Part shown: piece after piece, positions 35,969 through 55,215 of the stretch | Numbering within the stretch: the first letter of the stretch is position 1 | How the letters are laid out: each line of letters begins with the position of its first letter | Origin: Bdellovibrio bacteriovorus | GTDB lineage: Bacteria; Bdellovibrionota; Bdellovibrionia; Bdellovibrionales; Bdellovibrionaceae | Length of the DNA stretch: 64,000 bases | Assembly: GCF_001592735.1 (NCBI RefSeq) | Contig: NZ_LUKE01000006.1 | Coordinates: 1 to 64,000, forward strand | Direction of reading: 5' to 3' | Program-made: the position numbers and the translations under genes | The notes under the pieces: generated by a model | Told to the model about the DNA's origin: nothing | What the model saw: the letters and a program-made list of their open reading frames with translations, nothing else | The model's database searches: none

Positions 35969-36067
35969 TTTTCCAGGGTGAAATATCCATCGAGAGACTT
36001 AAAAGTATGTAGGGTTCCTCAGAATGCACCGATGGATTATGTATATTCTATTCGCAAGGAAGAGATA

Positions 36068-39000
36068 ATGATTCGGAACCCTGTGGCAAATCTAGTTATT
36101 TCTGCGTTCATTGTGATTTCGTTGACCGGATGTCTGCAGTCGGAGTCGTTGGTGTCGGGCCCGGTTGCAACGGCGACGTTTCAAGGTTGCATTTCTGCTT
36201 CGGGAGTCTCCAATTCGAGCGTTCGTGTGGAATTCACTTTTCCGAGCGAGGCTGATAAGGTCATCGTTTATCGCGATGGAATTCAAATCGGAGTATCATC
36301 CATTTCGACCATCACCTCCATTCTTGATACGGGGCTTATGGAGGGAGTGACCTATCAATATTCTTGTGACGCCTATAAAGGAGCCTCCAAGATTGCTGGT
36401 TCTGCTTACGTCACGGGCTCTCCCATTAACACCAATGCGCCTATTTTTAACGGAATTATCAATGCGGCTCGCTCCTCAAATTCTTCCGTCAAAGTGGATT
36501 GGAATCCTGAAAGTTCCAGCTCGTCTAAGGCTTCCTATTATTTGATCTACGCCAATGTTGGTTCGACTTTGGATTGGGCAGCGATACCTCGGGGTAAAGT
36601 GCCGGCCACGGGAACTTTCTCGATGATCGTAGATGGCTTGGGTGACGAGCTTCCTTATGTTTTTGGAGTCCGCGCATGCACCAAAGATGATATCTGCGAT
36701 TCTAATACGACCTTAAAGTCCCTGACACTTCCGGATCGTGGTGCGCCCCAAACGGTCGGCGTTTCTTTGATGGCCGGCCGAAATCGAACATTGTACATCA
36801 CGGCTCCTTGGGTGTCTTCTCAAGGGGGTATTGCCGAGCGACGCATCTATTCTTGTACGGGGGCAGGATGTACACTGCCAAACTCTCCAACAAAAACCGT
36901 CGCGGTGACCGACATTACAAATCCAGTTCAAGAAATGACGATAGAAAACTCTCTGGATTTCACCACCTACAAGGTGCGCGTCGATGATTTGGATCCTTCC
37001 GGGAATGTTAACAATTCTACGAACGTGATGACCTTTACGACCGGTGATATGACGGAGCCGGTGTTTTTAGGAATCGGGAGTATCATTAGCATCAGTCCTG
37101 TGGACAAGGCCGCCCGAATTGGCTTTACATCGGCACCTCGACAAGGCTCTTCAGACGCTGGAGCCGCCGACGGAATCAAAGAATATGTATTATACATTCA
37201 GTCGGCGCCTTTTGGGACTGTGCCTACGAATGCGTGCAATAAGGTTGTACCGGATGTGGTGATTTCTGCGGCGTCTTATCCAGGGGGAAATGCTCAGACT
37301 TATGATGTCACGAATCTTTCTGAACGGACCAATTATAGCTTTTGTATGAGGGCTCGGGATGCGGCTGGTAATACGTCCTCTATTAATGCTGAAGCCACTT
37401 TGACCACCGGCGACCTCACGGCGCCGAATTTTGGGGGCATCCAAAGTCTTACTTTCCGAAATACCGAAAAGGATCTGCTCTTAACATGGAACCCTCCTTT
37501 AAGTGCGGATCAAAATAACTATGTCGTGCGTATTTGGAAAAACAATCCCAATCCATCGGCCGCTGGTACACAGCTGGCTTCGTTTACAGCACCCAAGACC
37601 AGCACCAGCGGAAGAAGCATCACGCAATCCGATTACACCTTAAACGATAACGACGTTGTTTATGCCACTGTGGATGCTTGTGATAACGCGTCCACGTTGG
37701 GGTTAGGGCTGCCGGATAATTGCACTACATTTTACAACTCTTACACTTCGGCTAAGAAGACCACCATCCCTGACATTCGGCCTCCTCAAGGATTCACTTC
37801 CGGGATTAAGGCCGCAAGTGCGGGCGCCACGGAATCTTTGACCGAGGGAGTGGCGACGGTAAGATGGAATCGGCCTTCGGCTCCTTATCCGACAGACTAT
37901 GCGGGTTTCCGGGTTTATTCCGTCGATCCCGCAAGCCCTGTTGGCGCTAAAATCTTACTTAAATCTTGCGCTTGTGCGGCGAATCCTTGCAGTACGGCTT
38001 CTCCGGATTCGGCCAATTCTGATTTGAAATGTGATGTGACGGGACTATCTCCGTATCGTTTATATCGACTGCATGTTGTGGCTTATGATGCCGTGGGGAA
38101 TGAAAGTACCGATTTAAATCCTCTTTCAAGTTACACGGACTTGCGGATTCGCGACACCACACCTCCAGGCAACGGCGTTTTCGCCTCCAATTTAGAAGTC
38201 AGTGGTTTGGATTTTTCATGGTCGTCGACAACGGACAATCAATATTCTGTAGGTAATGCGATTACGTATAAACTGTATCGAAAAATTTCAAGCACCTTTG
38301 CCAACGCGGCAGCCCCGGATGCGGATGGGGTGCAGATTTATTCGGGCACTGTCAGAACGTTCACCGACACTCTTTCGGTCGGGGGAGTTTACTTTTACGG
38401 ACTTTGCGCGTTTGATGCTGCCGGGAATAAGACTTGCGATGCGGGAAATATTAAACAAGTTGTCGCCACGGACGTAACCGCTCCCTTAATTTATTCCTTT
38501 AGCACCACGAAGTCTGCGGATACCTTGGGATTGCAAAAACGCTGGGTCTTAACATGGAGTGCTGATGATCCAGGTGGGACTATTGCCACGAACTTAAAAG
38601 TATCAATTTATTCGAAGTTTTCAGAAACTGAGAACTCTGTCATGGCCACCGTTTCGGACACCTTGGTCTTTACCGGTTTTGCCAACACCACAAGTTCTGG
38701 CAATCTGACGGGCCCTTTGGGTAAAGATGGATGGATTAACTATTTGATCGTGGTCGAAGATTCTGAGCGCAATCGGACCACGCGAAATCTGACAGTTTAT
38801 TCGGCGAACAAGATGGCCTTTACGTCGGTGAAGACCTCTACGGCTTACTATGGGGGCGGAACTTTGGTGGTCTTCGAGGGACGAGGATTTTCAAAAGGCT
38901 CGGAAAATATCTATGGTCAAGACACTGTTGTTAAATTCAGTGGCACCACCTGTAACAATACGAAAGTTTTATCCGATGAATACATCTCTTGTGTGACCCC

Positions 39001-40564
39001 TGCCGGAACGGCAGGACCGGTGGATATTACTTTTACAAATCCTGAAGGCACTATCTTAACGGCTTCGGGTGCGTTCGTTTACAATGCGACTCGAACGGAT
39101 TCGTGTGATATTTTTGATGCTGCGGGTGGATCGTCCACCTACTTTGCCAACGCCCCTCAAAACGGCGGCACGGCCAATGGGACCAGTGAATCCAGCGCTT
39201 ATTTAATTTGCAATATCGCTCAACTGCAGCTCGCCTTAAATAATAGTGCTCTTATTTATTACAAGCTCGGAAGAAATTTGGATCTCAGCGGTATTTCCGG
39301 AGGGATTGTAAATACCTCTTCGTTTGGTGGAAGCTTGAATGGAAATGGCTTTGCGTTATTGGATTTAAATCGCACCGGTTCCGGACAGTACGTGGGAGCG
39401 ATCGCACTGACGACCTCCACCATCCAGTCTGTAAAATTTCTGGGATTTAATATTACCTCGACCAACACCAGCTCCACGGCGGGGCAAGCGGGTTGCGGCA
39501 TTTTTGGAAACAGCTCGGGATCTTCATCCTTTAAAAATTCCGGAGGCGTTCGGTCCCCCGTATTTAAAGGTATAACCATCGTTGCTAATATTGACTGCAG
39601 CAGTCCGGATGGAGCGCGCGTGGGCGCCATTGCTTCGGAATTTGGTTGGTCCGCAAATTCTTCATCTTTGGCGGTCGCAGATGACGATGCGGGTCTGCGA
39701 TCAAAAATTGTTATTTACGTTAAGGTTAAACCTTCCAGCAATGGCGGCAGCTTGAACACAGTTCCCGGGGTGGGAGGAGTGGTGGGGCTTCTGGTCGGGC
39801 CGCAAAATTTAACAATCAGAAACACGGATATTAAAACCTATCTGACCATCCTTGCATCCACGGGAAATAGGTGGCTGATGGCGGGCGGGGCTTTGGGATT
39901 TGTAGATTCGTCGACGCAGAACTTTACGATGACGCGATCTACGGCCTCGCTTTCGGTCCTTTCTCAAGCGGAAGCCTCTAGTAACGTGTTCAAGGGGGGC
40001 GTGGCGGGTTGCATACCTTCGCAAGTTTCCATGGATCAAGTGAAGGCAAAAATCTTCGTTAACCAAAATCCCGGAGGTTCCGTCGGAGGACTGTTTGGAA
40101 GCAACGGATGTTATTATTTGATGGGGTCTGCTTCCATTACCGATTCTTATGCATTAGGCAGTTACACCGGGACCACTACTAGGAATCTGGCATTTGGTGG
40201 AACGCTCACTCCGGCTTCGGGAACTGATTCCGTGACATTACAGCGGCTGTATTCGGCGGTAAAATTCACGCCGCAATCAACGATGGCGACCAGCTCTCAG
40301 TCTCCCAACTTCCGTGTGGATATTACTAACAATCCCACGGTTTCATCATCCAGTGTGCTTTATCGGGTAGAATCATTTCCTTACGGAGTTGATGCTGCCA
40401 GCGCAAATAGCATTGGCGAGCTCGACGCCGACATGAAAAACCAGGCGCCGGGGAATGTTTATGAATCCAGTAACTTCGACTTTAGTAGCGGGGGTAAATG
40501 GAAATGGTGTAATGTGGGCGAGTATCCGCGCCTCAAATTTGAAGATTGCGGAATCAATCAATAA
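36068..40564 (+). CDS. Giant lipoprotein with FN3, TIG and GLUG-like modules
   Basis: The 1,498-residue product has a lipoprotein signal (lipobox LTGC, Cys near 21). About 900 residues follow with repeated fibronectin-type-III-like units: strands ending in 'VTYQYSCDAY', 'LPYVFGVRACT', 'TNYSFCMRARDAAGN', 'RLYRLHVVAYDAVGN', 'GVYFYGLCAFDAAGN' (the classic Y.....A.D..GN end). Then comes an IPT/TIG domain around 945-1005 (GGGTLVVFEGRGFS) and a C-terminal repeat region with GLUG-type motifs (GGLFGSNGC, ITDSYALGSYTG). It should be surface-anchored and bind other cells or polysaccharide. The start at 36068 is chosen for its signal peptide; 30 residues upstream carry no signal. Confidence 0.85.
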   Translation: MIRNPVANLVISAFIVISLTGCLQSESLVSGPVATATFQGCISASGVSNSSVRVEFTFPSEADKVIVYRDGIQIGVSSISTITSILDTGLMEGVTYQYSCDAYKGASKIAGSAYVTGSPINTNAPIFNGIINAARSSNSSVKVDWNPESSSSSKASYYLIYANVGSTLDWAAIPRGKVPATGTFSMIVDGLGDELPYVFGVRACTKDDICDSNTTLKSLTLPDRGAPQTVGVSLMAGRNRTLYITAPWVSSQGGIAERRIYSCTGAGCTLPNSPTKTVAVTDITNPVQEMTIENSLDFTTYKVRVDDLDPSGNVNNSTNVMTFTTGDMTEPVFLGIGSIISISPVDKAARIGFTSAPRQGSSDAGAADGIKEYVLYIQSAPFGTVPTNACNKVVPDVVISAASYPGGNAQTYDVTNLSERTNYSFCMRARDAAGNTSSINAEATLTTGDLTAPNFGGIQSLTFRNTEKDLLLTWNPPLSADQNNYVVRIWKNNPNPSAAGTQLASFTAPKTSTSGRSITQSDYTLNDNDVVYATVDACDNASTLGLGLPDNCTTFYNSYTSAKKTTIPDIRPPQGFTSGIKAASAGATESLTEGVATVRWNRPSAPYPTDYAGFRVYSVDPASPVGAKILLKSCACAANPCSTASPDSANSDLKCDVTGLSPYRLYRLHVVAYDAVGNESTDLNPLSSYTDLRIRDTTPPGNGVFASNLEVSGLDFSWSSTTDNQYSVGNAITYKLYRKISSTFANAAAPDADGVQIYSGTVRTFTDTLSVGGVYFYGLCAFDAAGNKTCDAGNIKQVVATDVTAPLIYSFSTTKSADTLGLQKRWVLTWSADDPGGTIATNLKVSIYSKFSETENSVMATVSDTLVFTGFANTTSSGNLTGPLGKDGWINYLIVVEDSERNRTTRNLTVYSANKMAFTSVKTSTAYYGGGTLVVFEGRGFSKGSENIYGQDTVVKFSGTTCNNTKVLSDEYISCVTPAGTAGPVDITFTNPEGTILTASGAFVYNATRTDSCDIFDAAGGSSTYFANAPQNGGTANGTSESSAYLICNIAQLQLALNNSALIYYKLGRNLDLSGISGGIVNTSSFGGSLNGNGFALLDLNRTGSGQYVGAIALTTSTIQSVKFLGFNITSTNTSSTAGQAGCGIFGNSSGSSSFKNSGGVRSPVFKGITIVANIDCSSPDGARVGAIASEFGWSANSSSLAVADDDAGLRSKIVIYVKVKPSSNGGSLNTVPGVGGVVGLLVGPQNLTIRNTDIKTYLTILASTGNRWLMAGGALGFVDSSTQNFTMTRSTASLSVLSQAEASSNVFKGGVAGCIPSQVSMDQVKAKIFVNQNPGGSVGGLFGSNGCYYLMGSASITDSYALGSYTGTTTRNLAFGGTLTPASGTDSVTLQRLYSAVKFTPQSTMATSSQSPNFRVDITNNPTVSSSSVLYRVESFPYGVDAASANSIGELDADMKNQAPGNVYESSNFDFSSGGKWKWCNVGEYPRLKFEDCGINQ

Positions 40565-43233: not shown

Positions 43234-43548
43234 ATGGGTGAAAAGGTCTTGGTCGTAAAAGCAACTGGACTTAAAAACAAAGAAGAGAATTTGCAGGTTC
43301 GGAATGATATTCGAAACGTAATTAAAAGTGTTCTGCGAATGATTCTTTCCCATTCCTTTCAAGTCGAATATGAAGTCGGGGAGCGAACCACCAAATATTC
43401 CATCGATATCAATCAGCAGGATTGTGGTCGTCTTCTGGGCAGTCACGGACGAACAATCGGGGGGCTACGGACGTTAGTGACAGCGATGGCGGCTAGCGCT
43501 GGTATAAGAGCTGTCGTCGAGATTAAGAACGAAGAAAGATTTTTCTGA
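43234..43548 (+). CDS. KH-domain RNA-binding protein (KhpA-like)
   Basis: The 104-residue product has a KH domain with the GxxG loop in LLGSHGRTIGGLRTLV (residues about 70-85), the element that contacts single-stranded RNA. It lacks other domains and is slightly longer at its N-terminus than typical KhpA (about 75-80). It is a cytoplasmic RNA-binding protein, possibly a KhpA-type small RNA chaperone. It runs head-on into the motor operon, with stop codons two bases apart, and no terminator is seen between them. Confidence 0.8.
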   Translation: MGEKVLVVKATGLKNKEENLQVRNDIRNVIKSVLRMILSHSFQVEYEVGERTTKYSIDINQQDCGRLLGSHGRTIGGLRTLVTAMAASAGIRAVVEIKNEERFF

Positions 43549-43550
43549 AC

Positions 43551-43928
43551 TCAGGGCTTTCTATTTTTTTTGGCGATCTCATCCAAAAACATGTTCTTAA
43601 GTTGTTTTCTTAGTTCCGCGTTCCCGGGATCTCCACATGACTCCGTATCCATCGAAAGGTATTTAAACAAATTCATCTCCAGCGCGGCGATTTTTTCTTC
43701 AAGGGCTTTAAAGGGAAGATCGGCTCCGGAACTGGGGCGGCTGAGCCTCTCAATTTGGTTTAAAAGCCTTTCTTGATTTTGCAACACATTCGCAAGTATA
43801 TTTCGTAATTCCAAATTCTCTGCCACCACGGCAAAATGCTTTTCTTGAAGGTTCAAAAGATACCTTTCCACTTTTTCTTCAGAAATACGACGGACTTCGC
43901 TGAGCATGATTTCGTTTTTAAAAGACAT
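43551..43928 (-). CDS. Coiled-coil protein, last gene of the motor-like operon
   Basis: The 125-residue product has no signal peptide. Residues about 10-60 form a coiled coil rich in Glu, Leu and Lys (SEEKVERYLLNLQEKH, LELRNILANVLQNQERLLNQIERL), followed by a short linker and two further helices. It is likely cytoplasmic. The ATG at 43928 follows taggaatt; a TTG six bases earlier is also in frame. It begins inside the last codons of the barrel gene, so the two are coupled. It could be the cytoplasmic link between motor and output, which is only inferred. Confidence 0.6.
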   Translation of the reverse strand: MSFKNEIMLSEVRRISEEKVERYLLNLQEKHFAVVAENLELRNILANVLQNQERLLNQIERLSRPSSGADLPFKALEEKIAALEMNLFKYLSMDTESCGDPGNAELRKQLKNMFLDEIAKKNRKP

Positions 43929-44520
43929 AGCCAATTCCTATTCTTAAAAAAGTTTCCGAAAGATTCACACGGGCATCAGAGCTGGCAAAAGAAAGGGCGC
44001 TGGTTGATAGCTCGATATTCAAATCATAGCGATAATTCAAATAGTAATCGATTCCCGCCCCCAGGTTCATCACGGCGTATTCGCCTTTAAGAGTCGAGGT
44101 GGCGTCGTTGGACTGATAGTCAGGACCCAAATAAAAGTCTCTTTTGCCATAAACAAGGGCAAAATAAGCGTTCCATAAACTTCTTTGACGGGATACGCCC
44201 CAATCTGATTTTTCGGTCGTGGTCGTTCCGGTATTGTAGAAATAATATCTCGATCCGATTTCCATGCCAGAGACAGGCATCGAACCATTAGTCACGTCAA
44301 ATTCAGCCATATAGCCAAATACAAGTCCCAGTCGTTCATTCAGAAATTTTAAATACTGTAAGTTTAAACTTCCTACGGAAACGGCACTTCCGCTCTGCGT
44401 TCCGGTATTGGTCAACTGTCCCATACCAGACCGCAAAATCAGTTTAGAGGAGTAGGTTTTCTCACCAGCTTTTGCCGTGAGTGAAAATAATAAAAGGACG
44501 GAAAGGGTTAGACTCTTCAC
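43918..44520 (-). CDS. Outer-membrane barrel of the motor-like operon
   Basis: The 200-residue product has a signal peptide ending in AKAGE (about residue 19), then strands with alternating aromatic residues (YSSKLILRSGMGQL, NLQYLKFLNERLGLVFGYMAEF, RDFYLGPDY, GAGIDYYLNYRYDLNIEL) and a C-terminal IGIGYVF, a classic outer-membrane barrel signature ending in Phe. The predicted size is that of an 8-stranded barrel. The start overlaps the stop of the FliF/FliG-like gene by four bases (ATGA), so the products are probably made together and may form part of one envelope machine. Confidence 0.78.
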   Translation of the reverse strand: MKSLTLSVLLLFSLTAKAGEKTYSSKLILRSGMGQLTNTGTQSGSAVSVGSLNLQYLKFLNERLGLVFGYMAEFDVTNGSMPVSGMEIGSRYYFYNTGTTTTEKSDWGVSRQRSLWNAYFALVYGKRDFYLGPDYQSNDATSTLKGEYAVMNLGAGIDYYLNYRYDLNIELSTSALSFASSDARVNLSETFLRIGIGYVF

Positions 44521-46274
44521 GCGGCCAATCCCTTGTCCGAGCGCTTCGAAATCTTGCCAGCTTCATACAGCTTCATCGTCTTTTGTAGCGTCTCGCGCGT
44601 CAGGGAGATCGCCGCTTTAAGTTTAGCTTCGTCCGCTCGGGCCAAAGCCTGTTGTAATAGGTCAAGGACTACAGATTTTCGCATTCCTTCGGGAATATGA
44701 GATTTAAAGAGTTCCCTATCTTTTTCTGATGCCACATACAGCAAGGAAAAAAGTGTCTCGTTTGTCTGTGCATCGATGAAGTACTTTAGTGAAGCAATAT
44801 CTAATTCTCGAAGATCACGGAATGTCCAAAACTGTTTACGAAGACGCTCGCTGATGCGTGGGCTGTCGGCGGCAATTTCATCCAAGAACACTTCGTCCTC
44901 GCCAAAAGGTAAGATTTGAAGCTTTTGCAGTAATGGTTCCGATATTTTATCTTCAAACCCTACATCAATGACTTGGTGTAATTCAGGTTTGCTGTAGTTG
45001 CTTTTTAAGGCGGCGATCAATCTTTCTGAGTTATCTTTGGCCTGATCCAAGGTCACCTTCGAGCTGCGAATAATTTGCGCCCACTGCGTGGTTTCAAGCT
45101 CGGTGGATTTCTTTAAAAGATAGTCTGAACTGGCAAGCTCGGCTAAGACCTTCCAATATGCGATATTGTTTTCTTTAGAGGCCAGTTGGAAGATATGATC
45201 CGTTTCTAGTTGATAAAGAAACGAAAGATCATCCCCACTGAAAATGCTTTCCAAGAAATCACGGCCCGCCAAATGTTTCAGCGTCGCTCTTTCATTGAGA
45301 TCCTGCGCCCAGGCACCCATTGAAAAGTTCGCCGGCGCTAACATGGGCGTCATAATTTTTCTTAATCTTTCTTGGCCTAGGAACTTGTTCAGCCTTTCGG
45401 CGGTTTCGGTGGGCAATTGACTTAAAAACCACCTCAGCCCCAACATGTCAGAGGGAGAATCGGACAAAACCGAAATAAAGCGAACGGGTTCTTGATCGGC
45501 CAGCTTTTTTAAAGATTCCAGGAAATCCTTCGGGTTGATCTTTTCATTGACCAAAGTCTCCACCCGCTTGGGATCGGTTTCCGCTTCTTTCAAGTTTTGC
45601 GCAAGTTGCCCCTTCGGTTCGCTTCCACGAATTAGAATTCCTTCCGCCGCCAGATTTTTACTGGCGCTTCGAAGCGATTCGCTGAGTTTTGAGAATGCAA
45701 AATAAAGGGCCATAACTAAAGAAAAAGTTGAAACTGGCACGATGATCGCCCACAGGATGTCTTTTTTCGTAAAGTCCGGGGCCTTGATTTCTTTTGGCTG
45801 CTCCTTCGGGGTGGCTTCTGCGGCCGGTTTTGGTTTTATCACTTCAGTAAATTTGACTTTTTGAACGCGGATGTTCGGCCGATAGGGGGCAAACATTCTT
45901 TGTACGGACGTACGTAAAGATCGCACGGCCGCTTCATCTACTAAAGAAGATATGACCATAGAGATTTCCAGTCGATCAATCTCAAGTTCTTCTGATGAAG
46001 GACTTCCCATGGCCGCCACAGGGGCGGGCAAATATCCAACATCCAGGGCTTCAGTTTCTTTCGGGGCGGGAGCGGCGGTTTTTTTGGTAACGGCCTTTAC
46101 ACTGGCGGCAACATTTTCCGAAGTTCCAAAATGCACCGTGGAAAGTCTTAAAATTTGTTGCTCCACCTGACGTTCGAAATTTTCAACGCTAGTTTCAGAC
46201 AGCGCCCAGGTAGTCTGAGGGGCGAGTAGAATTGTCGAAAAAATTATGAAAAATAAATTTTTAATATTTTTCAT
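44517..46274 (-). CDS. Membrane protein combining FliF-end-like and FliG-like parts
   Basis: The 585-residue product has an N-terminal hydrophobic segment (about 6-24) and a periplasmic part in which EIDRLEISMVISSLVDEA near 97-115, followed by an MFAPYRPNIRVQKVKF strand, recalls the last periplasmic domain of FliF. A Pro/Lys/Glu-rich linker leads to one membrane span at about 172-190 (ILWAIIVPVSTFSLVMALYF), like FliF TM2. The next 390 residues are cytoplasmic helices; the last 115 match the FliG C-terminal domain: ISERLRKQFWTFRDLRELD, SLLYVASEKDRELFK and TLQKTMKLYEAGKI. Canonical torque residues are only partly kept (LRKQ present, DDR replaced by DIA). It overlaps the PEGA lipoprotein gene and lies downstream of motA and motB, so it may be their rotor. 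The assignment is by pattern, not by search. Confidence 0.75.
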   Translation of the reverse strand: MKNIKNLFFIIFSTILLAPQTTWALSETSVENFERQVEQQILRLSTVHFGTSENVAASVKAVTKKTAAPAPKETEALDVGYLPAPVAAMGSPSSEELEIDRLEISMVISSLVDEAAVRSLRTSVQRMFAPYRPNIRVQKVKFTEVIKPKPAAEATPKEQPKEIKAPDFTKKDILWAIIVPVSTFSLVMALYFAFSKLSESLRSASKNLAAEGILIRGSEPKGQLAQNLKEAETDPKRVETLVNEKINPKDFLESLKKLADQEPVRFISVLSDSPSDMLGLRWFLSQLPTETAERLNKFLGQERLRKIMTPMLAPANFSMGAWAQDLNERATLKHLAGRDFLESIFSGDDLSFLYQLETDHIFQLASKENNIAYWKVLAELASSDYLLKKSTELETTQWAQIIRSSKVTLDQAKDNSERLIAALKSNYSKPELHQVIDVGFEDKISEPLLQKLQILPFGEDEVFLDEIAADSPRISERLRKQFWTFRDLRELDIASLKYFIDAQTNETLFSLLYVASEKDRELFKSHIPEGMRKSVVLDLLQQALARADEAKLKAAISLTRETLQKTMKLYEAGKISKRSDKGLAA

Positions 46275-46867
46275 TGGGTTGTCCTTCCTGACAAGTTTTC
46301 AAGCATTCTTTTTACAACGGCGTCATTGGGGTCCAGAGACAGTGCCCGGACAATTAACTGTTTAGCTTCAGCGCGGTTGCCTTTTTCGATGGCGATGTTG
46401 GCCTGCAAGACATAACCGGCAGCGATATTCGGATAGGCCTTCATAAAGACTTGAAGGCGATTTTCTGCCTCGTTTGTTTTTTTTGAGAAAAGGAGACCCT
46501 GGATTTGAAGAAGTTCACGCACCAATTCATTCTGCGGACGTTGAAAGCTTTTAAGGACGATCGTTTCAAAGTACTTCTGGTTCAATTCCAAAAGATTGAT
46601 TGTAAAGTTTTGTAATCCTTGTGTGGGAACAATGACCGATTTTTCTTCATGCTCAGCCTTCGTTATTTTTATATTTAAATAGTTTTGTTTAAATTCATCG
46701 GGATAGTTTGATTCAGATATTTCGATAGGCGTTTCGCCAATGACTTTATCCGAAATTATCACCGCGGCCGCGGACGGCGTCGACTCGATACGGATGGTTC
46801 GTGGAGACATGCACGCGGTCAGAAGTAAAGGAACTAAAATAAAAACGCTCAACAAATTTTTTTTCAT
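46271..46867 (-). CDS. PEGA-domain lipoprotein with TPR-like C-terminus
   Basis: The 198-residue product has a lipobox (LTAC, Cys near 19). Residues about 25-85 form a PEGA-type surface-binding domain (IRIESTPSAAAVIISDKVIGETPIEI; the STP...V.....GETP pattern). The remaining 100 residues are TPR-like helices (AAGYVLQANIAIEKGNRAEAKQLIVRALSLDPND). PEGA domains occur in surface-layer and cell-wall-associated proteins. Its place between motB and the FliF/FliG-like gene suggests a structural role in the envelope part of the motor. Confidence 0.83.
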   Translation of the reverse strand: MKKNLLSVFILVPLLLTACMSPRTIRIESTPSAAAVIISDKVIGETPIEISESNYPDEFKQNYLNIKITKAEHEEKSVIVPTQGLQNFTINLLELNQKYFETIVLKSFQRPQNELVRELLQIQGLLFSKKTNEAENRLQVFMKAYPNIAAGYVLQANIAIEKGNRAEAKQLIVRALSLDPNDAVVKRMLENLSGRTTQ

Positions 46868-46868
46868 T

Positions 46869-47597
46869 TTACTTTGCCTCGAAGTTTTTCAATATTTTTA
46901 CGACCACGCGTCTGTTCTGTGCTTGGTTGAACTCGTTCCAGCTCCCATCAGGATTTTTGTCAGAGGCGATGGATCGGGTGTCTCCCCAGCCGAGGGCTTT
47001 GATTTTTGAAGCCGCAAAACCTTTTTCTAAGAAGAGTCTTAAAACCCGACATGCTCGGATACTTGAGAGTTCCCAGTTTGTGGCGACGGGACCATCGGTA
47101 AGCAGCGGTCGACTGTCTGTGTGTCCCTCAACTACGATGCCAAAGTCCTTCGCCTTTTCGGATATGACGGGAATTAAATCCGTCAACAGACGAATGGCTT
47201 CGGAGCGCAGTTCATAGGAACCCGTTTCAAAAAAAAGGGCACCGCGAAAGGTGATTTCGATTCCTTCTTCTGTTTGCGTAAATACGACCTGATCCCCAGC
47301 GTTCATTTTTTTCACGACCTCTTCAAGCTGTTTTTTTAAATCTTCGAAGGGCATTTGATATTCGCCCCCGAATAGCTGCGTCGTTTCTTTTTTCACTTTT
47401 TCAAAAGAACTTGAATCGATTTTCGAAAAGCTTTGTAAAACCACGAAAAAGCCTACCAGCAGGGTCATCATATCCGCATAGGACACCAGCCAACTTCCTT
47501 CGCCCTCTTCTTCATGCTCGGGGGGGCGTCGCGGGGGTTCATTACCGCTATCCCAAATGGATGGTTCTTCATCTGGTCTAATTTTTAGTGCACCCAT
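46869..47597 (-). CDS. motB: MotB-type stator protein
   Basis: The 242-residue product has a charged N-terminal part, one membrane span at about 37-56 (SYADMMTLLVGFFVVLQSF) with the proton-carrying Asp (Asp42, equivalent to Asp32 of E. coli MotB), a linker and plug region, and an OmpA-like peptidoglycan-binding domain around 105-235 (FFETGSYELRSEAI, VVEGHTDSRPL, WELSSIRACRVLR, NRRVVVKI). It anchors a MotA/MotB stator to the cell wall and conducts protons. One base separates it from motA upstream. Confidence 0.93.
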   Translation of the reverse strand: MGALKIRPDEEPSIWDSGNEPPRRPPEHEEEGEGSWLVSYADMMTLLVGFFVVLQSFSKIDSSSFEKVKKETTQLFGGEYQMPFEDLKKQLEEVVKKMNAGDQVVFTQTEEGIEITFRGALFFETGSYELRSEAIRLLTDLIPVISEKAKDFGIVVEGHTDSRPLLTDGPVATNWELSSIRACRVLRLFLEKGFAASKIKALGWGDTRSIASDKNPDGSWNEFNQAQNRRVVVKILKNFEAK

Positions 47598-47598
47598 A

Positions 47599-48387
47599 TT
47601 AGCTCGCTTTCGCCTGCAGCTTGTGGCGCTCCGTCGGATTTAAGTAACTAACCAGGAACTCTTCAACGACCAGAGGATGTTCTTGGGCGCGAAGCAGTCG
47701 AATGCCGTCGATGACTAACTCGCGCAAAAGTTCGTCTTCTTCATTTAATTTGGCAAGGTTTTCTCCCAGTGGAATAAAAACAAAATTGGCCAGAGCGATA
47801 CCGTAAAGTGTCGCCACTAAACCTATGGCCATGGCTGGCCCCAGGCGGGAATACGCGTCGGCAGAGCCTAAGCTTTGAAGTAAGGCAATCATACCAATGG
47901 TCGTTCCCATAAGGCCGAAGGCCGGCGGAAATTTAGCCAGGGTCTTAAAGATGTTGGCCTCTTTCTGATGGCGTCTAAATTGAACGTCGGCTCTTTTTTT
48001 AAGGATGGCATCCAGTTGTTTGTCGTTCATACCGCCGTCCACCAAAAGTTTCAGGCCATCGCGCAAGAAGTCTGTTTTAATTTGCGGTATTTTTTCTCGA
48101 AATAATTGGGCATCTTCTTTTTGGGTCTTCGACATTTCTACAATTTCGCGAATCGCATTGGCGTGACGATGTCCGTATTTTCCCAAAAACTTACGAATGA
48201 CGACTTTCACCATTTGGGGAAAGGTGGACACTGGGAAACAGAGAAAGGCCGCGGCCATCGTGCCCCCGATGACAATGAGAATGCCGTGGGGATCTAAAAA
48301 TATTTCGCGAGAAGACGTTGAGGTGAAGATAGCAACCCCGAAAACAACGATTGCCGCGATAACTCCAAGTGCCGAAGAAAAATTCAT
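47599..48387 (-). CDS. motA: MotA-type stator protein
   Basis: The 262-residue product has four membrane spans, about 2-20, 30-50, 145-165 and 175-200. The cytoplasmic loop and the third-fourth spans carry the MotA signature (FPPAFGLMGTTIGMIALLQSL, then LGPAMAIGLVATLYGIALANF, both with the conserved Pro). It forms the proton channel together with MotB. The ATG at 48387 has ggaggc just upstream. It lies 97 bases downstream of the FecR-like gene. No flagellar genes are nearby, so its output may be non-flagellar. Confidence 0.93.
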   Translation of the reverse strand: MNFSSALGVIAAIVVFGVAIFTSTSSREIFLDPHGILIVIGGTMAAAFLCFPVSTFPQMVKVVIRKFLGKYGHRHANAIREIVEMSKTQKEDAQLFREKIPQIKTDFLRDGLKLLVDGGMNDKQLDAILKKRADVQFRRHQKEANIFKTLAKFPPAFGLMGTTIGMIALLQSLGSADAYSRLGPAMAIGLVATLYGIALANFVFIPLGENLAKLNEEDELLRELVIDGIRLLRAQEHPLVVEEFLVSYLNPTERHKLQAKAS

Positions 48388-48484
48388 AAAGCCTCCAGAA
48401 AATTTTTCGGAGACTTGACCCATTTCGAGAGTCCAAGTTTGAACTGCAAAGTACTTTACTGCGCACTAACGAGCAACGGACTGG

Positions 48485-49324
48485 CTAGTTGAGGATATCT
48501 AAATCGCGGTTTTCCAGGAGGAACTTTTGAAGTTCGTCTTTATGATATTCGATGGCTTCAAATTCTCCGACCTCATCGACACCCAGACCTTTCAGATGCC
48601 ATTGGTATGTGCCAGGTTTATTAACGGTGTACGGGATTTCTGTGGGAAAACCGGATCGCTTATAGGTGGCATCAAATTTTCCATTTAACGATATCTCAAA
48701 GACACATTCTTCACGACATTCAAACGGAAGCGATATCGATATCAAAGCCTGCTTGCGATAAAGCAGGATTGAATTTCGCTTAGGATAAAGTTGCACTCCC
48801 TTGATGACGAGATTTTGACTTTTGATTTTTGCAGAATCGGTTTTCGCCTTCGGCACATCGACGTTTTGGGTGTCGGTCATTGAGGATGTGGCAGGGGGCA
48901 AGGAATTTCGTGAAACTTCAACGTCGGCTCCCGGAGGGAGTTGGACTTCCCCTTGCTGGACGTCGAGGTGAATCATCCCATTTCTTAAACTTAATCGAAT
49001 CAGAGAGTTTGGGAGCATTTTTATAACGGTGTACTTGCCATAGGTGGTTATCAATGCGCTCACATTCCCGGTTCGAAGATAATCACCGTTTCGGAGAATG
49101 GTATTTGGAGGCGTTAACATCCATCGTAATGAATCATAGGGTCGATACTCAAGCTCTCCCGAAGGTCCGTGAAAGTAGGCGATAGGCTGGGAATAACCGG
49201 CGCCCGCAAAGAAAAACTGATGCTGAGTGCGCATCAAAATAATTCCGGATACACACAGGCCGGCCACAAATAAGAGTGCTAAATTAAGAGTGCCGAACTG
49301 TAATAAGAGACGTTGAAGTGACAC
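48485..49324 (-). CDS. FecR-like single-span membrane protein
   Basis: The product (279 residues from GTG at 49324; a TTG at 49366 would add 14) has one N-terminal span (LNLALLFVAGLCVSGIILM) and an outside part. The segment near residues 80-140 (NTILRNGDYLRTGNVSALITT, MIHLDVQQGEVQLP) has the 'G....TG..s...' and 'v...G.v.v' elements of the FecR periplasmic sensor domain. The rest is beta-rich with a CREECVF pair. It is the first gene of the motor-like operon. A role as an envelope sensor or structural anchor is inferred. Confidence 0.72.
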   Translation of the reverse strand: MSLQRLLLQFGTLNLALLFVAGLCVSGIILMRTQHQFFFAGAGYSQPIAYFHGPSGELEYRPYDSLRWMLTPPNTILRNGDYLRTGNVSALITTYGKYTVIKMLPNSLIRLSLRNGMIHLDVQQGEVQLPPGADVEVSRNSLPPATSSMTDTQNVDVPKAKTDSAKIKSQNLVIKGVQLYPKRNSILLYRKQALISISLPFECREECVFEISLNGKFDATYKRSGFPTEIPYTVNKPGTYQWHLKGLGVDEVGEFEAIEYHKDELQKFLLENRDLDILN

Positions 49325-49336
49325 CTTTGTAGTAGA

Positions 49337-50830
49337 ATGGATTCTTTGATGAAACTCAATGCCCAAATTAAACTTCTGATTTCTTTCTTACTTTTGGTCA
49401 CGGTTTTGGCAAATGCCGGTATTTTTTTGTACAACCAGTATCACGAAAAAGTAGATCTGCTTGTTGATATGGTCATGCAGAAGAATCGGTTCTTAGAACG
49501 AATAAGCCAGGACGTGGATTCGAGTCATCTGATAGCAAATCTTCAACGGGAATTAAGTGTCCCTGAATGGTCCAGATCCATGTTGGTGGATGAAAAAGGC
49601 ACAATTCTTTTTCAAGAACAGATGTCTGCAAAAAATGAGGATCAGGTTCTACTGAGAAGTGGTAAACTTCAACAAGTCTTAAAAAGTGGCGTGATAGAGG
49701 GTCTTGTTGAAGAGGAAGCCAAAGACGGAATGGCTTTCGTCGCTTACCGGGTCGTGCCGAAGCTGGGATTTTTTTTAACGGTGGCTCCTAAGCGCCTGGT
49801 GATCTCTAGTCTGCAATATCAAATGGCGATGGCCTTCTTAATCTGTGTTGCTTTTTTGGCCCTAGCTGATATTGGTGTTTCTTATGTTTTAAATAGAATT
49901 ACTAACAGCCTTGAAAGGCTTTCCCAACAGGTGGAGCAATTTGGTCAGGACGGGGTCCGTATCGAGGCCCTTGAGCAAGGTGGATCAGAAGAAATTTCGA
50001 CCTTATCGAAAAACTTCAATAAAATGACTCAAAGTATCGAGGATCTGATTGCCGTGAAAGAGAAAAAATCTTCCATGGATGCGGAGATTCGCATGGCCGA
50101 ACAGGTGCAGATGAGTTTCTTTCCAGAGATGAGCGTAAGGACGCGGGAATACTCATTGGCTGGATACACTCAGCAGATGCATGGCTGCGGCGGCGATTGG
50201 TTGTATCACTTCGAGGTGGATCATTTTTTATTTATCGCGGTGGGGGATGTTACGGGGCACGGGCTTTCTTCAGCTCTACTGACCGGCGTCAGTCGAACGT
50301 ATTTTTCAGTCATTGAGGATGTTCGAATTGCGGATCCAGGGGAACTCTTGGAAGGTCTCAATCGAGTTCTTCATAAGGTGGCCAAAGGCTCTTTAAGCAT
50401 GACATTTTTTTTGGGACGGATCAATTTGGTTACTGGCGAAATGGATTTTGCCAACGCGAGCCACTGCGCACCTTTTGTGTTTAAAAATGAAAATGGTCAA
50501 AATGTCGGGACCGAGAGTGTGATGGCCGAGCCCGGATCCATATTAGGCCTTCGTCCTTCGTCAAAGTATTCCACTTCGAAGTATTTTCTTAAGGCGCAGG
50601 ATACGCTTTTTGTATGCACCGACGGGCTGGTGGAACTGAGAACTCCCACGGGCCGCCCCCTTGGCGAGAGAAAGTTAATAAAGTCTTTAAAAGAGCTCTT
50701 TGCCCAGAATGAATTTGAGACTCTGTCGCCGAAACTTTCATCCTATGTAAAACAGGCCAGCGGGGGCCAGCCTTGTGAGGATGATATTTCTTGGATGATT
50801 TTAAGGATCAATCAGCTAAGATCTGTTTGA
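49337..50830 (+). CDS. HAMP/SpoIIE-type serine phosphatase, membrane-bound
   Basis: The 497-residue product has an N-terminal span (about 10-30), a periplasmic sensor part, a second span near 170-190, a HAMP linker (about 190-245: ITNSLERLSQQVEQFG) and a C-terminal PP2C/SpoIIE phosphatase domain from about 255, with EIRMAEQVQMSFFPEM, the metal site VGDVTGHGLSSALLTG, and a final QPCEDDISWMIL with Asp metal ligands. It removes phosphate from serine/threonine, often on an anti-anti-sigma-type STAS protein. Its gene is divergent from the motor operon, only 12 bases from the FecR-like start, so it probably regulates that system. Confidence 0.9.
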   Translation: MDSLMKLNAQIKLLISFLLLVTVLANAGIFLYNQYHEKVDLLVDMVMQKNRFLERISQDVDSSHLIANLQRELSVPEWSRSMLVDEKGTILFQEQMSAKNEDQVLLRSGKLQQVLKSGVIEGLVEEEAKDGMAFVAYRVVPKLGFFLTVAPKRLVISSLQYQMAMAFLICVAFLALADIGVSYVLNRITNSLERLSQQVEQFGQDGVRIEALEQGGSEEISTLSKNFNKMTQSIEDLIAVKEKKSSMDAEIRMAEQVQMSFFPEMSVRTREYSLAGYTQQMHGCGGDWLYHFEVDHFLFIAVGDVTGHGLSSALLTGVSRTYFSVIEDVRIADPGELLEGLNRVLHKVAKGSLSMTFFLGRINLVTGEMDFANASHCAPFVFKNENGQNVGTESVMAEPGSILGLRPSSKYSTSKYFLKAQDTLFVCTDGLVELRTPTGRPLGERKLIKSLKELFAQNEFETLSPKLSSYVKQASGGQPCEDDISWMILRINQLRSV

Positions 50831-50831
50831 A

Positions 50832-53800
50832 TCAAAGCCCCAATTTTTGTTTAATCAGCTGAAGTTCGCGATCTTGTTTTTCTAAGCGAGCCTTGAGTTC
50901 GGCATTTTCTTTTCTTAGCGCGCTCACGTCTTGTTCGACGGAAGCCACGCTGCGATGAAGATCGGCAGAATCCGTCGACCATTTTTTATGAAGCTCTTGC
51001 AAGCCGGCGGTCAGGACCGACACAAAATGGGCGTAATTCACTTGTTTGAATCCACGCTCATCTGTTTTTACGTATTCCGGAAATAACTTTTCCAACTCTT
51101 GCGCGATGAAGCCCGTCTGTTTTTCGTGTTTGAGATCTTTGATCCAAGTAAAATGCACGGTGCGAACTTTAAGCAGCTGATCTAAATTGGTTGTCAGATC
51201 CACGGTTTGTACATTTTCTTTTAAACGAATATCGGAAGAACACGATGTTCCGTTCCAAGAAATGCTACATCCTGCACCGCCTGATCCCGTCGAAACGAAA
51301 TTTGCGATATTGCCTGAAACATTCGTCGTCGAAACGTGCAGGGGAGCATTCGGATTGGCTGTGCCGATACCTAAGTAGCCATTCTGATCAAGACGCATTT
51401 TTTCACTGCGAGTGTTATTATTATTACCTGTCGTTTCAAATACCAACGCGGTCCCGTTGGCCCCGGAGCTCCAGGCTTGTGTCGACCATCCCGTGATGCC
51501 GCTGGTAAAATTGTAATAGCCGCCAGAATTTGATAAGCCGCCAAAGCCGATAATGCCTAAGCGTTGATTTGCTGCCGTTGGGACCAGGGTGGTCATGATT
51601 AAATTAGAACCACCCGACAATATTCCTAAAGAAGCGGTACTGCTAGAACGAATGTTGCCCGAGGCCGAAGTGGACTGCACCTCTAATGAGGCGCCGGGAT
51701 TTGTCGTACCAATACCCACCCAACCAGATCCCAGAATAGTCATTTTCGTGGATGGTGTGTTATCGGTGGTAGCGCCGGCAGTGCCAGCACTTGCAGTTTG
51801 GAAGGAAATACTACTTGCGCCGTTACCCGTAGAAATACCGCTGGATAAAATCAAATCACCCCCATTACGATCGGCGATGTTTTGTTTCGGCGCTCCCGAA
51901 ATAACCGTCAACGATTTACCGTCTTGAGAACCGGTGTTGTTGCGGGCCATACCAATTTCAGCCGTATTGCTAAAACCACCCAAAGTCAGGGTGTGTCCCG
52001 AGCAGCCGGTGACGGAGTTGTAGGCCGAGCCAACCACCAAGCACGCATTTGAAGTGGGTAAGAAAACTCGCGACGCGTTCATTTCGATGCGCCCCGCGCC
52101 TTTGGCTGAAATCGCAATCGGAATATCGGTGTCTGAACCCGCCGCCGCCAGGGTGGGGGCTAAAGTCGTTGCGGCTCCGGTCACCGTCAAATAATTCACG
52201 GTGCTTGCTCCGCCGTCGACGACCTGGAATTGACGACCATTGGAATTTACAACGTCAAACAGAGAAGTGGGTGATGAAGTACCAATAGCGACTTTGCCGG
52301 CCGAGTCTTGGTAAAGTCCCAGAATGTTATTTACGCTCACGGAATAAGAACCTCCGCCGCCTGAAACTAATTTCGTGGAGCTGTTACCGCGATTGATCGT
52401 GAAAACAGAACTTGAATCTTGGTATAAGCTTGTTGACGACGTCGAACCCGATTCTTCAATGCGTAAACCCGCAGTGCTCGCAGATTGTTTGATGTGGAAT
52501 CGATCTCCGGGTGACGTGGTCCCGACACCTACCGCGGTGCCACTGACATACAATGGAGAATTGGCTAGGGCCGAGGCGGAAGAAAGATAGGGAACATAAC
52601 CCGTAGTTCCGGAGCTCGTCACGACACTTGAAGGTAAGCGAGCAGCATCGATTGTTCCAGAAACGATTTTAGATGCATCTAAAGAGATCGCGGTACAAGC
52701 TAAGTTATCAGTGGCGGCGGTCCAGGTTAATGTTTCTCCGGCCGTACATCCTGTGCTGCCCGCACCGAACGTCGCCGTCCCCGTGACCGTGGATCGCAGA
52801 TCAAACATAGAAATAAAATTAGGTTTCCAAGTCGTGCCATCATAACGCAGAACTTGTCCTGAAGAATTTGGTGCGGTGGCGCTGACGGCTTTGTTTTGGA
52901 TTTTCGTCACGGTCGTGCTGCCGTCGTTGGCCATACTGATGTCTCCGGATACCGAGACAGCGGCGGCGACGTTGGAAGCGTTGCCCACCCAAATTTTACC
53001 AGCTGTTAAGGCGGCACCTGAGGGATCCGTTCCTGAAATTGTGACGTCGGTTGCGGAAGTCACGCGCCCATAGGTGTCGACAGTCAATTGGGGGACGGTG
53101 GTCGCGCTGCCATAAGTATTTGCGGTGACTCCACTTGCTGTTAACGCGATCGTTCCTGAACCCGTGATTGTACCACCGCTTAAGCCGGTCCCTGCCGTGA
53201 TGCTGGTGACGGTGCCTCCACTTGATGTGGGCCAAGCCGAACGACAGTCCGTATCAATGCAAAGTTCCGTGCCTTTGATTTTGCCGACCACTTCTAATTT
53301 TTCAGAAGGAGAATTTGTACCAATACCTACCGAACCGGTGGAACGATAAACATTTCCAGAATTCGCACTCCACAATGCATCGGTGACGGTTGATGATAAT
53401 CCCACAGTCCCGGCGGTGTAAGTCAGGGGGGAGCTAACAGCAATAGGGGCAGCCCAAGTCAGGCCAGAGGCACTTGATGAATCCGCCTTTAAAACATTTC
53501 CGTTCGTACCTGTAGGCAAGCGAATATTGTTGGTCCCGTCATAGACGATGACGTCCCCTTTTGTCGTCGTTGGAGCTAAGGCATCGAAAGAATCACTGGC
53601 CGTGGTTTTACCTGTACCGCCCTTATTGATGGGTAATGTGCCAGAAGAAATTTGACTGAGTGACAAATTCGTCAAATTAGAACCATCAATCACCGGTAAT
53701 TTGTCACCGCTCGCCACTTGAACTAATTTTCCCGCGGTTGTTCCTACATCGGCCGTTAATGTGCCAGCGGAATATGAAAGTGGAGATACCACGCTTACGC

Positions 53801-54923
53801 TGCTATAAGAGTTGGCTCCATTTCTTTGCACAATGCCTGTTGTCGTCATCGAAGCGATGTCCGTGGCGATGGGCGCACTCCAAACAAGTCCTGAGGATTG
53901 AGTTGAATCGGCCTTTAAGACATATCCATTTGCGCCTACACCTAAGCGCACGTGATCAGTCCCGTTGAAAACAGGAATGTCTCCTTTGGTTGTTGAGGGA
54001 GAAAGAGCATCAAACGCCTCTGTCGCCGAAGTTTTTCCGGTACCACCGTTGGCGATGGGTAAAACTCCGGAAACGCCAGTCGCTAAGGGAATTGTTGGCA
54101 AATCGCTTGCTGAGATGTTGCCTGCTGACTGTACGATACCTTTTACGTCGACCGTCACTTTCGTATAAGTGCCCGCGGCAACGCCCGTGGATTTTAAATC
54201 AATTGTACCTGGACCCGAGAGGGTGCCCCCGGCAACACCACCGGCGGTTAAGCCAGATCCTACGGTCAGGGAGGAAACGCCGACACCGCCGCCGCCGCCC
54301 GAGTTTGAAACATAAAGCGTGCTTGTCCCGGAAACGAGGGATCTTAATTCATTGTAGTCTGCGGGAGAAAGTGGCGTCGTTGTTTGCGGTCCCGAACCGT
54401 TAGCTACGCGTAAAAGAGAATCCGAAGTGAAGCCGCCTACTTGAAGGGCATCAATCGACTGAGGAACTTGATTGATCATCTGTTGCGGTGCAGGTTCCCA
54501 ACCCGTAAATGTTCCATCATTAAAATAGACTAAAAGGCTGCGACCTGAAGAAGCTAGGGGTGAAAAAGTGGTTCCCGAAGAACAAGTCCCTGAGGGGAAA
54601 GTGAAGGGAACGCGGTTTGAAAAGATATCTTGAAAGGAGTATCCACTCGTGTCCGTACGTGATCCAGCACCGGAATTTAAGCTTATGGAAAATACACCGG
54701 CACTGGCCGAAAGATCTTTAGTCAGCGTTTCCTCATACATCAAACAGTTTTCCGCGCCTGATGTACGAATTTGGACTTTAAATCGAACGGTTGGTGCATT
54801 TAGTGGAGTGCCATCAGACTTCATGATGCGTCCGTGATAGGTAATCGCCGGCCCGCTGGCTTTGACCTGTGTCGCTATTGTTAAAACCAATAAAAAGAAG
54901 AAAGTGGTTAATGATGTTTTCAT
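50832..54923 (-). CDS. Trimeric fibre protein with C-terminal S74 chaperone domain (MAT-like)
   Basis: The 1,363-residue product has a signal peptide (residues about 1-22), an N-terminal domain (ITYHGRIMKSDGTPL, then a beta-rich head), and a Ser/Thr/Gly-rich shaft with recurring units: LPIANGGTGKTSATEAFDAL and LPINKGGTGKTTASDSFDAL, each followed by a TKGD..V.(D/N)GT..(I/V)RL..G.NG.VLKAD unit about 140 residues apart. The C-terminus has the S74 intramolecular chaperone: CSSDIRLKENVQ (self-cleavage site before the Ser) and TGFIAQELEKLFPEYVKTDE. A final coiled coil (RKENAELKARLEKQDREL) trimerises the fibre. The start ATG at 54923 begins the signal peptide. The protein resembles the mosaic adhesive trimers used by Bdellovibrio on prey; its role here is inferred. 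Confidence 0.88.
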   Translation of the reverse strand: MKTSLTTFFFLLVLTIATQVKASGPAITYHGRIMKSDGTPLNAPTVRFKVQIRTSGAENCLMYEETLTKDLSASAGVFSISLNSGAGSRTDTSGYSFQDIFSNRVPFTFPSGTCSSGTTFSPLASSGRSLLVYFNDGTFTGWEPAPQQMINQVPQSIDALQVGGFTSDSLLRVANGSGPQTTTPLSPADYNELRSLVSGTSTLYVSNSGGGGGVGVSSLTVGSGLTAGGVAGGTLSGPGTIDLKSTGVAAGTYTKVTVDVKGIVQSAGNISASDLPTIPLATGVSGVLPIANGGTGKTSATEAFDALSPSTTKGDIPVFNGTDHVRLGVGANGYVLKADSTQSSGLVWSAPIATDIASMTTTGIVQRNGANSYSSVSVVSPLSYSAGTLTADVGTTAGKLVQVASGDKLPVIDGSNLTNLSLSQISSGTLPINKGGTGKTTASDSFDALAPTTTKGDVIVYDGTNNIRLPTGTNGNVLKADSSSASGLTWAAPIAVSSPLTYTAGTVGLSSTVTDALWSANSGNVYRSTGSVGIGTNSPSEKLEVVGKIKGTELCIDTDCRSAWPTSSGGTVTSITAGTGLSGGTITGSGTIALTASGVTANTYGSATTVPQLTVDTYGRVTSATDVTISGTDPSGAALTAGKIWVGNASNVAAAVSVSGDISMANDGSTTVTKIQNKAVSATAPNSSGQVLRYDGTTWKPNFISMFDLRSTVTGTATFGAGSTGCTAGETLTWTAATDNLACTAISLDASKIVSGTIDAARLPSSVVTSSGTTGYVPYLSSASALANSPLYVSGTAVGVGTTSPGDRFHIKQSASTAGLRIEESGSTSSTSLYQDSSSVFTINRGNSSTKLVSGGGGSYSVSVNNILGLYQDSAGKVAIGTSSPTSLFDVVNSNGRQFQVVDGGASTVNYLTVTGAATTLAPTLAAAGSDTDIPIAISAKGAGRIEMNASRVFLPTSNACLVVGSAYNSVTGCSGHTLTLGGFSNTAEIGMARNNTGSQDGKSLTVISGAPKQNIADRNGGDLILSSGISTGNGASSISFQTASAGTAGATTDNTPSTKMTILGSGWVGIGTTNPGASLEVQSTSASGNIRSSSTASLGILSGGSNLIMTTLVPTAANQRLGIIGFGGLSNSGGYYNFTSGITGWSTQAWSSGANGTALVFETTGNNNNTRSEKMRLDQNGYLGIGTANPNAPLHVSTTNVSGNIANFVSTGSGGAGCSISWNGTSCSSDIRLKENVQTVDLTTNLDQLLKVRTVHFTWIKDLKHEKQTGFIAQELEKLFPEYVKTDERGFKQVNYAHFVSVLTAGLQELHKKWSTDSADLHRSVASVEQDVSALRKENAELKARLEKQDRELQLIKQKLGL

Positions 54924-54924
54924 A

Positions 54925-55215
54925 TTATTGGGTCTCCGAAACGAACACGCCTTGGATGCCAGAATAAACCTGATATCCACGAGGAGTTGTGGTTGTGACT
55001 TCACTACTTAGTTCACCGGCGGAATGAGAAACCACGTACCCGCGGGGGGTGACGGAGTTTTGTTTTCCCATACTTAACACTTCTGAAAAAGCTCCAGCCG
55101 GATAAGTACTTTGGACTCCCGGGTGATGACCTTCATCGACCACGGACTGGCCGCCACCAAATGGGTTTGAACACGCCGCTAAAAATAGCAATGCCGCGAC
55201 AGACACGTACTTCAT
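54925..55215 (-). CDS. Small lipoprotein with a duplicated TPRGY motif
   Basis: The 96-residue product has a lipobox (LAAC, Cys near 15) and, in the second half, TPRGYVVSHSAG and TPRGYQVYSGI, two copies of a short motif about 25 residues apart. The start ATG at 55215 overlaps the stop of the LysM/barrel gene (ATGA). One base separates its stop from the start of the fibre gene, so it may be an assembly or anchoring factor for the fibre. No family was recognised. Confidence 0.72.
   Translation of the reverse strand: MKYVSVAALLFLAACSNPFGGGQSVVDEGHHPGVQSTYPAGAFSEVLSMGKQNSVTPRGYVVSHSAGELSSEVTTTTPRGYQVYSGIQGVFVSETQ

Follow-up and report, generated by a model that had tools for sequence, protein, structure and literature searches.

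We report that a set of six genes in a 64,000-nt stretch of the Bdellovibrio bacteriovorus genome (assembly GCF_001592735.1, contig NZ_LUKE01000006.1, positions 1-64,000 of the forward strand; hereafter the window) most plausibly encodes a flagellar-type rotary motor that does without a rod, hook or filament and has no type III export, a reading to which we give a probability of roughly 0.55. The set comprises MotA, MotB, a PEGA/TPR lipoprotein, a protein in which a FliF-like part is fused to a FliG-like part, a small outer-membrane barrel and a giant lipoprotein. Our reading is built on the domain identities and their order, the flagellar type of MotA, the residues of the ion channel, the co-conservation of the parts and their separation from flagellar genes. 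The three copies of the operon in this genome are referred to as C6 (the copy in the window), C1 and C2; G and L numbers denote genomes of the phylum and fetched loci, respectively. The six members lie in the window as follows.

35978..40564, + strand: giant FN3/TIG lipoprotein, 1528 aa from the start of the open reading frame (ORF); Pfam fn3 and TIG; sixth conserved part
43918..44520, - strand: small outer-membrane beta-barrel; signal peptide, C-terminal Phe; OMP_b-brl 0.0035
44517..46274, - strand: FliF-RBM3/FliG fusion, 585 aa; FliG_C 8.7e-7 and structure matches
46271..46867, - strand: PEGA/TPR lipoprotein; lipobox LLLTAC; PEGA 5.8e-4, TPR 1.4e-4
46869..47597, - strand: MotB; MotB_plug 4e-16, OmpA 8.8e-14 (Pfam)
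47599..48423, - strand: MotA; MotA_ExbB 2.6e-21 (Pfam)

The five leftward members belong to a row of seven leftward ORFs, all of which were found where a preliminary description of this DNA had placed them; from the coiled-coil gene at one end to a gene for a single-span membrane protein at the other (both described below), successive neighbours overlap by 17, 4 and 4 bases and are then spaced by 1, 1 and 61 bases. The PEGA/TPR lipoprotein, MotA and MotB with its channel Asp, as that description had them, are borne out by Pfam (the PEGA match falls just under the cut-off) and by conserved residues, and its outer-membrane barrel by the weak OMP_b-brl match. Because this genome has three copies of the operon, which is also found in eight families of the phylum, it is not a chance array.

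FliG-like and FliF-like parts of the fusion protein

Whether the 585-residue protein matches FliG had been set beforehand as a refuting check on the preliminary description; the match was found both by sequence profile and by Foldseek. In Pfam, FliG_C scores 29.6 bits against a cut-off of 23.3 (E 8.7e-7). A profile of the 17-member family matched the solved FliG structure 3hjl (E 9.6e-6, profile positions 394-577) as well as other FliG entries, and hhalign aligned the fusion family with the genome's own FliG at 4.5e-5. With the fusion model as query, the top rows of Foldseek were all FliG, and entries of the FliF MS-ring ranked next; VIA-align superposed the model on the middle and C-terminal (M and C) domains of FliG with Z up to 12.7, and the FliG_C structure 1qc7_A matched it with Z 9.9 (3.5 Å over 98 residues). 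In the FliG middle (ARM) domain, the model aligns from residue 249 with FliG from residues 103-106, at high root-mean-square deviation (rmsd) and with partly low predicted local distance difference test (pLDDT) values. Many VIA-align alignments begin at about FliG residue 94-116, and some rows reach FliG residues 3-5 by way of low-confidence residues of the model. As most structure alignments begin near FliG residue 103-116, the FliG_N domain is probably missing from the modelled fusion; FliG_N binds FliF_C, and would be unnecessary here because the fusion joins both parts in one chain.

The fusion is laid out as a signal peptide, a periplasmic domain resembling the third ring-building motif (RBM3) of FliF (residues ~28-143), one transmembrane segment (TM; ~171-196) and a cytoplasmic FliG M/C-like part (~250-578), and it ends in Ala-Ala. 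Its structure is an AlphaFold2 model from three sequences, with a mean pLDDT of 59.9 and a predicted template modelling score (pTM) of 0.31; pLDDT is mostly 70-90 in the periplasmic domain and the C-domain. The modelled periplasmic domain runs through helix 30-49, strands 55-65 and 97-109, helix 114-127 and strand 133-140, an alpha-beta-beta-alpha-beta succession that is the order of a ring-building motif, and everything after the TM is helical. VIA-align against FliF RBM3 gave Z 9-11.1 (Z 11.1 at 2.9 Å over 91 residues; lowest rmsd 2.1 Å, reached over 85 residues), and the best unrelated fold, of OsmC type, gave Z 9.6. A FliF profile matched the fusion with a score of 32.6, the sequence match being confined to helix 1 and strand 1 of RBM3; none of 200 column shuffles reached this score (best 20.8). 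Structure comparison (Z 11.1) and the shuffle-controlled profile thus recover, as RBM3, the FliF match claimed in the preliminary description. Pfam found no FliF part anywhere in the operon, so that the assignment rests on the structure model and the helix-1 profile match; PF01514 (YscJ_FliF) was matched in this genome by true FliF only. RBM1, RBM2 and the first TM of FliF (TM1) were not found in the fusion by Pfam, and a single TM follows the signal peptide; as modelled, the domain order is RBM3, membrane span and FliG M/C, without RBM1, RBM2 or TM1.

Two family traits of the fusion deserve mention. Between strand 1 and strand 2 of the RBM3-like domain, the insertion contains the family motif DxGYLPxP (fusion residues 78-83), at which a periplasmic partner, for instance the PEGA lipoprotein, may dock. 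Among the fusion of the window and its 26 certain or likely homologues, nearly all terminate in Ala-Ala or Ala-Ser after an unconserved tail, against a background of 24/241 ORFs for Ala-Ala ends; several operon MotAs end similarly, and the Ala-Ala end of the fusions could be a ClpX-type degradation signal.

Stator and torque interface

In a tree of 19 MotA, TolQ and ExbB proteins, the operon MotAs fall with the genome's two flagellar-type MotAs and E. coli MotA, and this group is split from TolQ/ExbB at 100/100; by sequence, the operon MotA is classed as flagellar (PomA/MotA) type. Its true start is probably 48387, judging from the conserved start in homologue alignment A2. MotB has one TM bearing the channel Asp D42, and an OmpA-type peptidoglycan-binding domain. 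This Asp and the two channel prolines of MotA are invariant in the homologue alignments A2 and A3, and the prolines also in an alignment of eight operons. The positions of the E. coli MotA torque residues R90 and E98 are variable across the eight operon MotAs; the E98 position, which adjoins an alignment gap, is mostly R or K in close copies and holds other residues elsewhere. On the FliG side, D289 (E. coli) is largely retained among 22 fusion homologues, inside a new conserved torque-helix motif, LPEGxxK-TIVxD.

The giant lipoprotein, the PEGA/TPR lipoprotein and the barrel

Overlooked in the preliminary description, the giant lipoprotein makes up the sixth conserved part of the set. It contains FN3 repeats (fn3 9.9e-17) and an IPT/TIG domain (TIG 6.7e-10; both Pfam), probably starts at 36068 with the lipobox ..SLTGC, and has a C-terminus of glycine-rich repeats ending in ..WKWC..YPxLxWExC; a structure model of its C-terminal 493 residues reached pLDDT 30. 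We propose that it forms the surface end of the set. Its gene lies on the + strand in the window, is divergent from motA in copies C1 and C2 and in G064, and adjoins the operon in many loci; the giants of C1 and C2 (L016, L035) are 42-43% identical to that of the window across some 1150 residues, whereas their C-terminal parts differ. The N-terminal part of the giant occurs in 16/369 genomes, 12 of which also carry the fusion vs. 0.9 expected (hypergeometric p 2e-14, without correction for kinship). In G249, which has a giant and no fusion match, the genes for the giant, PEGA, MotA, MotB, a 554-aa protein of fusion topology and a barrel-like protein stand one after another, in what is probably a divergent form of the set; in G193 and G088, which gave no match to the giant profile, the gene next to PEGA encodes a protein of 1466 or 1492 aa whose start resembles a lipobox. 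Cys19 of the PEGA/TPR lipoprotein is invariant in 12 homologues, and the protein probably resides in the outer membrane; its gene adjoins that of the fusion, or is separated from it by a single gene, in 20 of the 22 judgeable loci. Barrel homologues neighbour the fusion gene in most loci, and a barrel shares the locus of the fusion in about 15 of the 22 (several contigs are cut).

The main rival to a rotary motor is a transducer of Tol/Ton type that serves to display the giant on the surface: MotAB would pump or pull on a fixed RBM3/FliG scaffold, with no rotor, and so move or keep the giant at the surface, much as TolQR or ExbBD act on TolA or TonB. Among the partners that are not motor proteins, none but the PEGA/TPR lipoprotein and the barrel is as consistent as the giant; those two would suit an export or display path; and an axle, FliM and FliN are absent from the locus. 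However, MotA is of flagellar and not of TolQ/ExbB type, and MotB is predicted to bind peptidoglycan, both typical of stators of FliG rings, and it is established that Tol/Ton-type systems need no FliG C-domain. We regard such a transducer as unlikely, and as the strongest of the alternatives.

Distribution and separation from flagellar genes

Besides the copy in the window, the genome carries C1 (~353-358 kb) and C2 (~30-35 kb). The set was found in none of the 23 congeners searched and in one further genome of the family (G064); across the phylum, 14 genomes match a narrow profile of the fusion and 20/369 a wide one (19 genera, eight families). A scan of genomes of all phyla with narrow peptide patterns returned two Bdellovibrionota loci and nothing else, and a plasmid search with the fusion protein gave no match. 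GC content (45.1% for the operon vs. 45.8% for the window) gives no signal of recent transfer. Given its absence from the 23 congeners, the set cannot serve the genus at large as its motor for gliding or invasion, and would be at most a lineage-specific addition to gliding. A match to the fusion in G049 was rejected as true FliG, judged by its flagellar neighbours. In L058 (G337), L132 (G193) and L133 (G088), two fusion/PEGA units are adjacent, the second unit of L132 and L133 consisting of motA-motB-PEGA and a diverged, fusion-like protein of 641-651 aa.

The true FliF, FliG, FliM, FliN and FliP of this genome are encoded at C1:743-815 kb, far from all three copies, with the single FliM, FliN and FliP at C1:744-746 kb. 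No rod, hook or export genes were seen in the fetched neighbourhoods, where not every neighbour was searched against the library; the set is not tied to a flagellar cluster, and the second refuting check set for the preliminary description, an operon always next to a full flagellar cluster in relatives, did not refute it. True FliF is present elsewhere in 14/14 operon-bearing genomes checked, and stator sets are known to be swappable in flagellated bacteria, both of which would suit a set that serves the flagellum itself as an additional or alternative rotor/stator. But the fusion has ring and membrane parts of its own, its copies lie far from flagellar genes, the set is absent from 23/23 congeners, and it is accompanied by a barrel and a giant lipoprotein instead; we consider a role in the flagellum very unlikely.

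A patchy distribution and multiple copies in one genome would also suit an anti-phage defence of Zorya type, with its MotAB-like ZorAB, and MotB does match ZorB models in PADLOC (6e-18). Among the window proteins tested, however, PADLOC gave no match for MotA or the other parts, no ZorC/D/E-like partner was seen, and outer-membrane and surface parts stand in place of cytoplasmic effectors, so that we give defence scant credence. Scarcely any falls to a decaying remnant of a second flagellar system: the flagellar-protein descent of some parts and the patchy presence would fit decay, but the ORFs are intact in three copies and eight families, the motifs LPEGxxK and DxGYLPxP and the channel residues are conserved, and a set of non-flagellar parts is shared.

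Neighbouring genes and possible regulation

The operon in the window is flanked or extended by the following genes outside the set.

43234..43548, + strand: KhpA/B-like protein with a KH domain; its gene converges on the operon; found beside copy C1 too
43551..43934, - strand: coiled-coil protein; no family assigned
48485..49366, - strand: single-TM protein ("FecR-like" in the preliminary description); no Pfam match
49337..50830, + strand: HAMP and SpoIIE-type phosphatase, divergent neighbour; SpoIIE 1e-36

The coiled-coil and "FecR-like" genes are not conserved parts of the set. In copy C1 and G064 the coiled-coil slot is filled by coiled-coil proteins of different sequence. The label "FecR-like" found no support in Pfam or NCBIfam; homologues of this single-TM protein adjoin copy C2 and occur in L056, the start of its gene overlaps that of the divergent SpoIIE gene, and it would be accessory or regulatory at most.

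SpoIIE-type phosphatases are encoded at 49337-50830 of the window, beside copy C2, and in L061, L064 and L124; STAS-like proteins and one HATPase-like protein lie near other copies, and a GGDEF protein in L056. Such neighbours suggest partner-switching control of the set, with the SpoIIE phosphatase of the window as the probable regulator. SpoIIE-type phosphatases, STAS-like (~160 aa) and HATPase-like proteins recur near the set at L055, L061, L064, L124, window 49337-50830 and L035 4304-5779. Further along the window, 50832-55004 (- strand) encodes a 1390-aa repetitive secreted protein whose end, SDIRLKENV..., resembles tail-fibre chaperone ends. At 5241-5942 (+ strand) lies a gene for a 233-aa soluble protein with FliG_C at 28 bits, over the cut-off, and a likely C-terminal coiled coil; it was rejected as a member of the set, being found in 56/66 family genomes with or without the operon, and is a core gene of the family.

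Proposed mechanism

In the rotary motor that we favour, RBM3 domains would assemble the fusion subunits into an inner-membrane ring with the FliG M/C part as its cytoplasmic rim; peptidoglycan-anchored MotA5B2 units, powered by the proton (or sodium) gradient, would push the FliG-like torque helix; from the periplasmic face, the PEGA/TPR lipoprotein and the barrel would relay the torque to the giant lipoprotein; and the giant, outside the cell, would serve for adhesion or as a lever when the cell moves over surfaces or makes contact with prey or surfaces. Homology, domain order and co-conservation support the self-contained, envelope-spanning rotary or force-generating device of the preliminary description; its rotary character and every use, together with ring formation, a mechanical link to the outer membrane and the surface exposure of the giant, are what we infer from them.

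Several observations weigh against this mechanism. The operon MotAs do not retain the stator Glu (E98 in E. coli MotA) and, in the 22 fusion homologues, FliG K264, R281 and D288 are replaced, D284 has become K or R in most, and R297 mostly D or E; the sequences leave us to suppose that the rotor-stator contact is either kept but rewired or made with another partner. The AlphaFold2 model of the fusion, built from three sequences, is of low confidence on average (pLDDT 59.9), and RBM3 is ahead of unrelated OsmC-like folds by only ~1.5 Z. RBM1, RBM2, TM1, FliM, FliN and any axle are absent, and an object for the ring to turn is not evident. MotA and MotB share a locus with the fusion in only ~13/22 cases (some contigs are cut).

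We tentatively suggest, at somewhat less than even odds, that the set represents a new class of rotary nanomachine, in which a natural FliF-FliG ring turned by MotAB, with no flagellar axle or export, drives the giant for locomotion, adhesion or prey handling.

Comparison with known systems

In the open-licence literature we found no description of FliG outside flagella, of natural FliF-FliG fusions or of non-flagellar MotAB operons, and rotor-stator coupling via FliG has apparently been described there only within the flagellum. If our reading is true, the motor of the flagellum is a module that can function on its own, and the set would offer a minimal system for the study of torque transfer in which the charges are naturally rewired. 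It would also be a candidate surface motor in the phylum, limited to the minority of species that carry it; according to a 2026 review, the gliding motor of Bdellovibrio is unidentified (PMC13104615).

The set resembles the flagellar motor in its flagellar-type MotA/MotB and, as modelled, in the FliF RBM3 fold, TM and FliG M/C domains, which come in equal order and membrane topology. Unlike that motor, it has one fused protein without RBM1/2 or TM1; genes for FliM/FliN, rod, hook, filament and export are not in the locus; the charges of the torque interface are rewired; and a barrel, a PEGA/TPR lipoprotein and a giant are present instead. A laboratory deletion fusion of Salmonella FliF (minus its last 56 residues) and FliG (minus its first 94) still swims (PMC6445934): there, at nearly the same place, the join follows the last membrane span of FliF, FliG lacks its N-domain, as the present fusion probably does, and the motor turns, whereas that fusion is engineered, keeps the full periplasmic part of FliF and drives a flagellum. 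Zorya likewise has a MotB-like subunit and uses MotAB outside the flagellum, but the present set has no defence effectors and does have FliG, a barrel and surface parts. The Bacteroidota type IX secretion system (T9SS) with GldLM is also an ion-driven motor, moving surface adhesins, but GldLM, according to the 2026 review, resembles MotAB without homology (PMC13104615), and the system has no FliG.

By analogy, the nearest overall plan is that of the Agl-Glt gliding machine of Myxococcus, which has homologues in Bdellovibrio (PMC3169522): both combine an ion-driven motor with TPR and outer-membrane parts across the envelope. Four sets of its core complex have been reported in the B. bacteriovorus genome (PMC3169522), and the present set is absent from the congeners searched. 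The AglRQS motor is of TolQR/ExbB type and lacks a FliF/FliG part, whereas the motor of the set described here is flagellar-type MotA/MotB.

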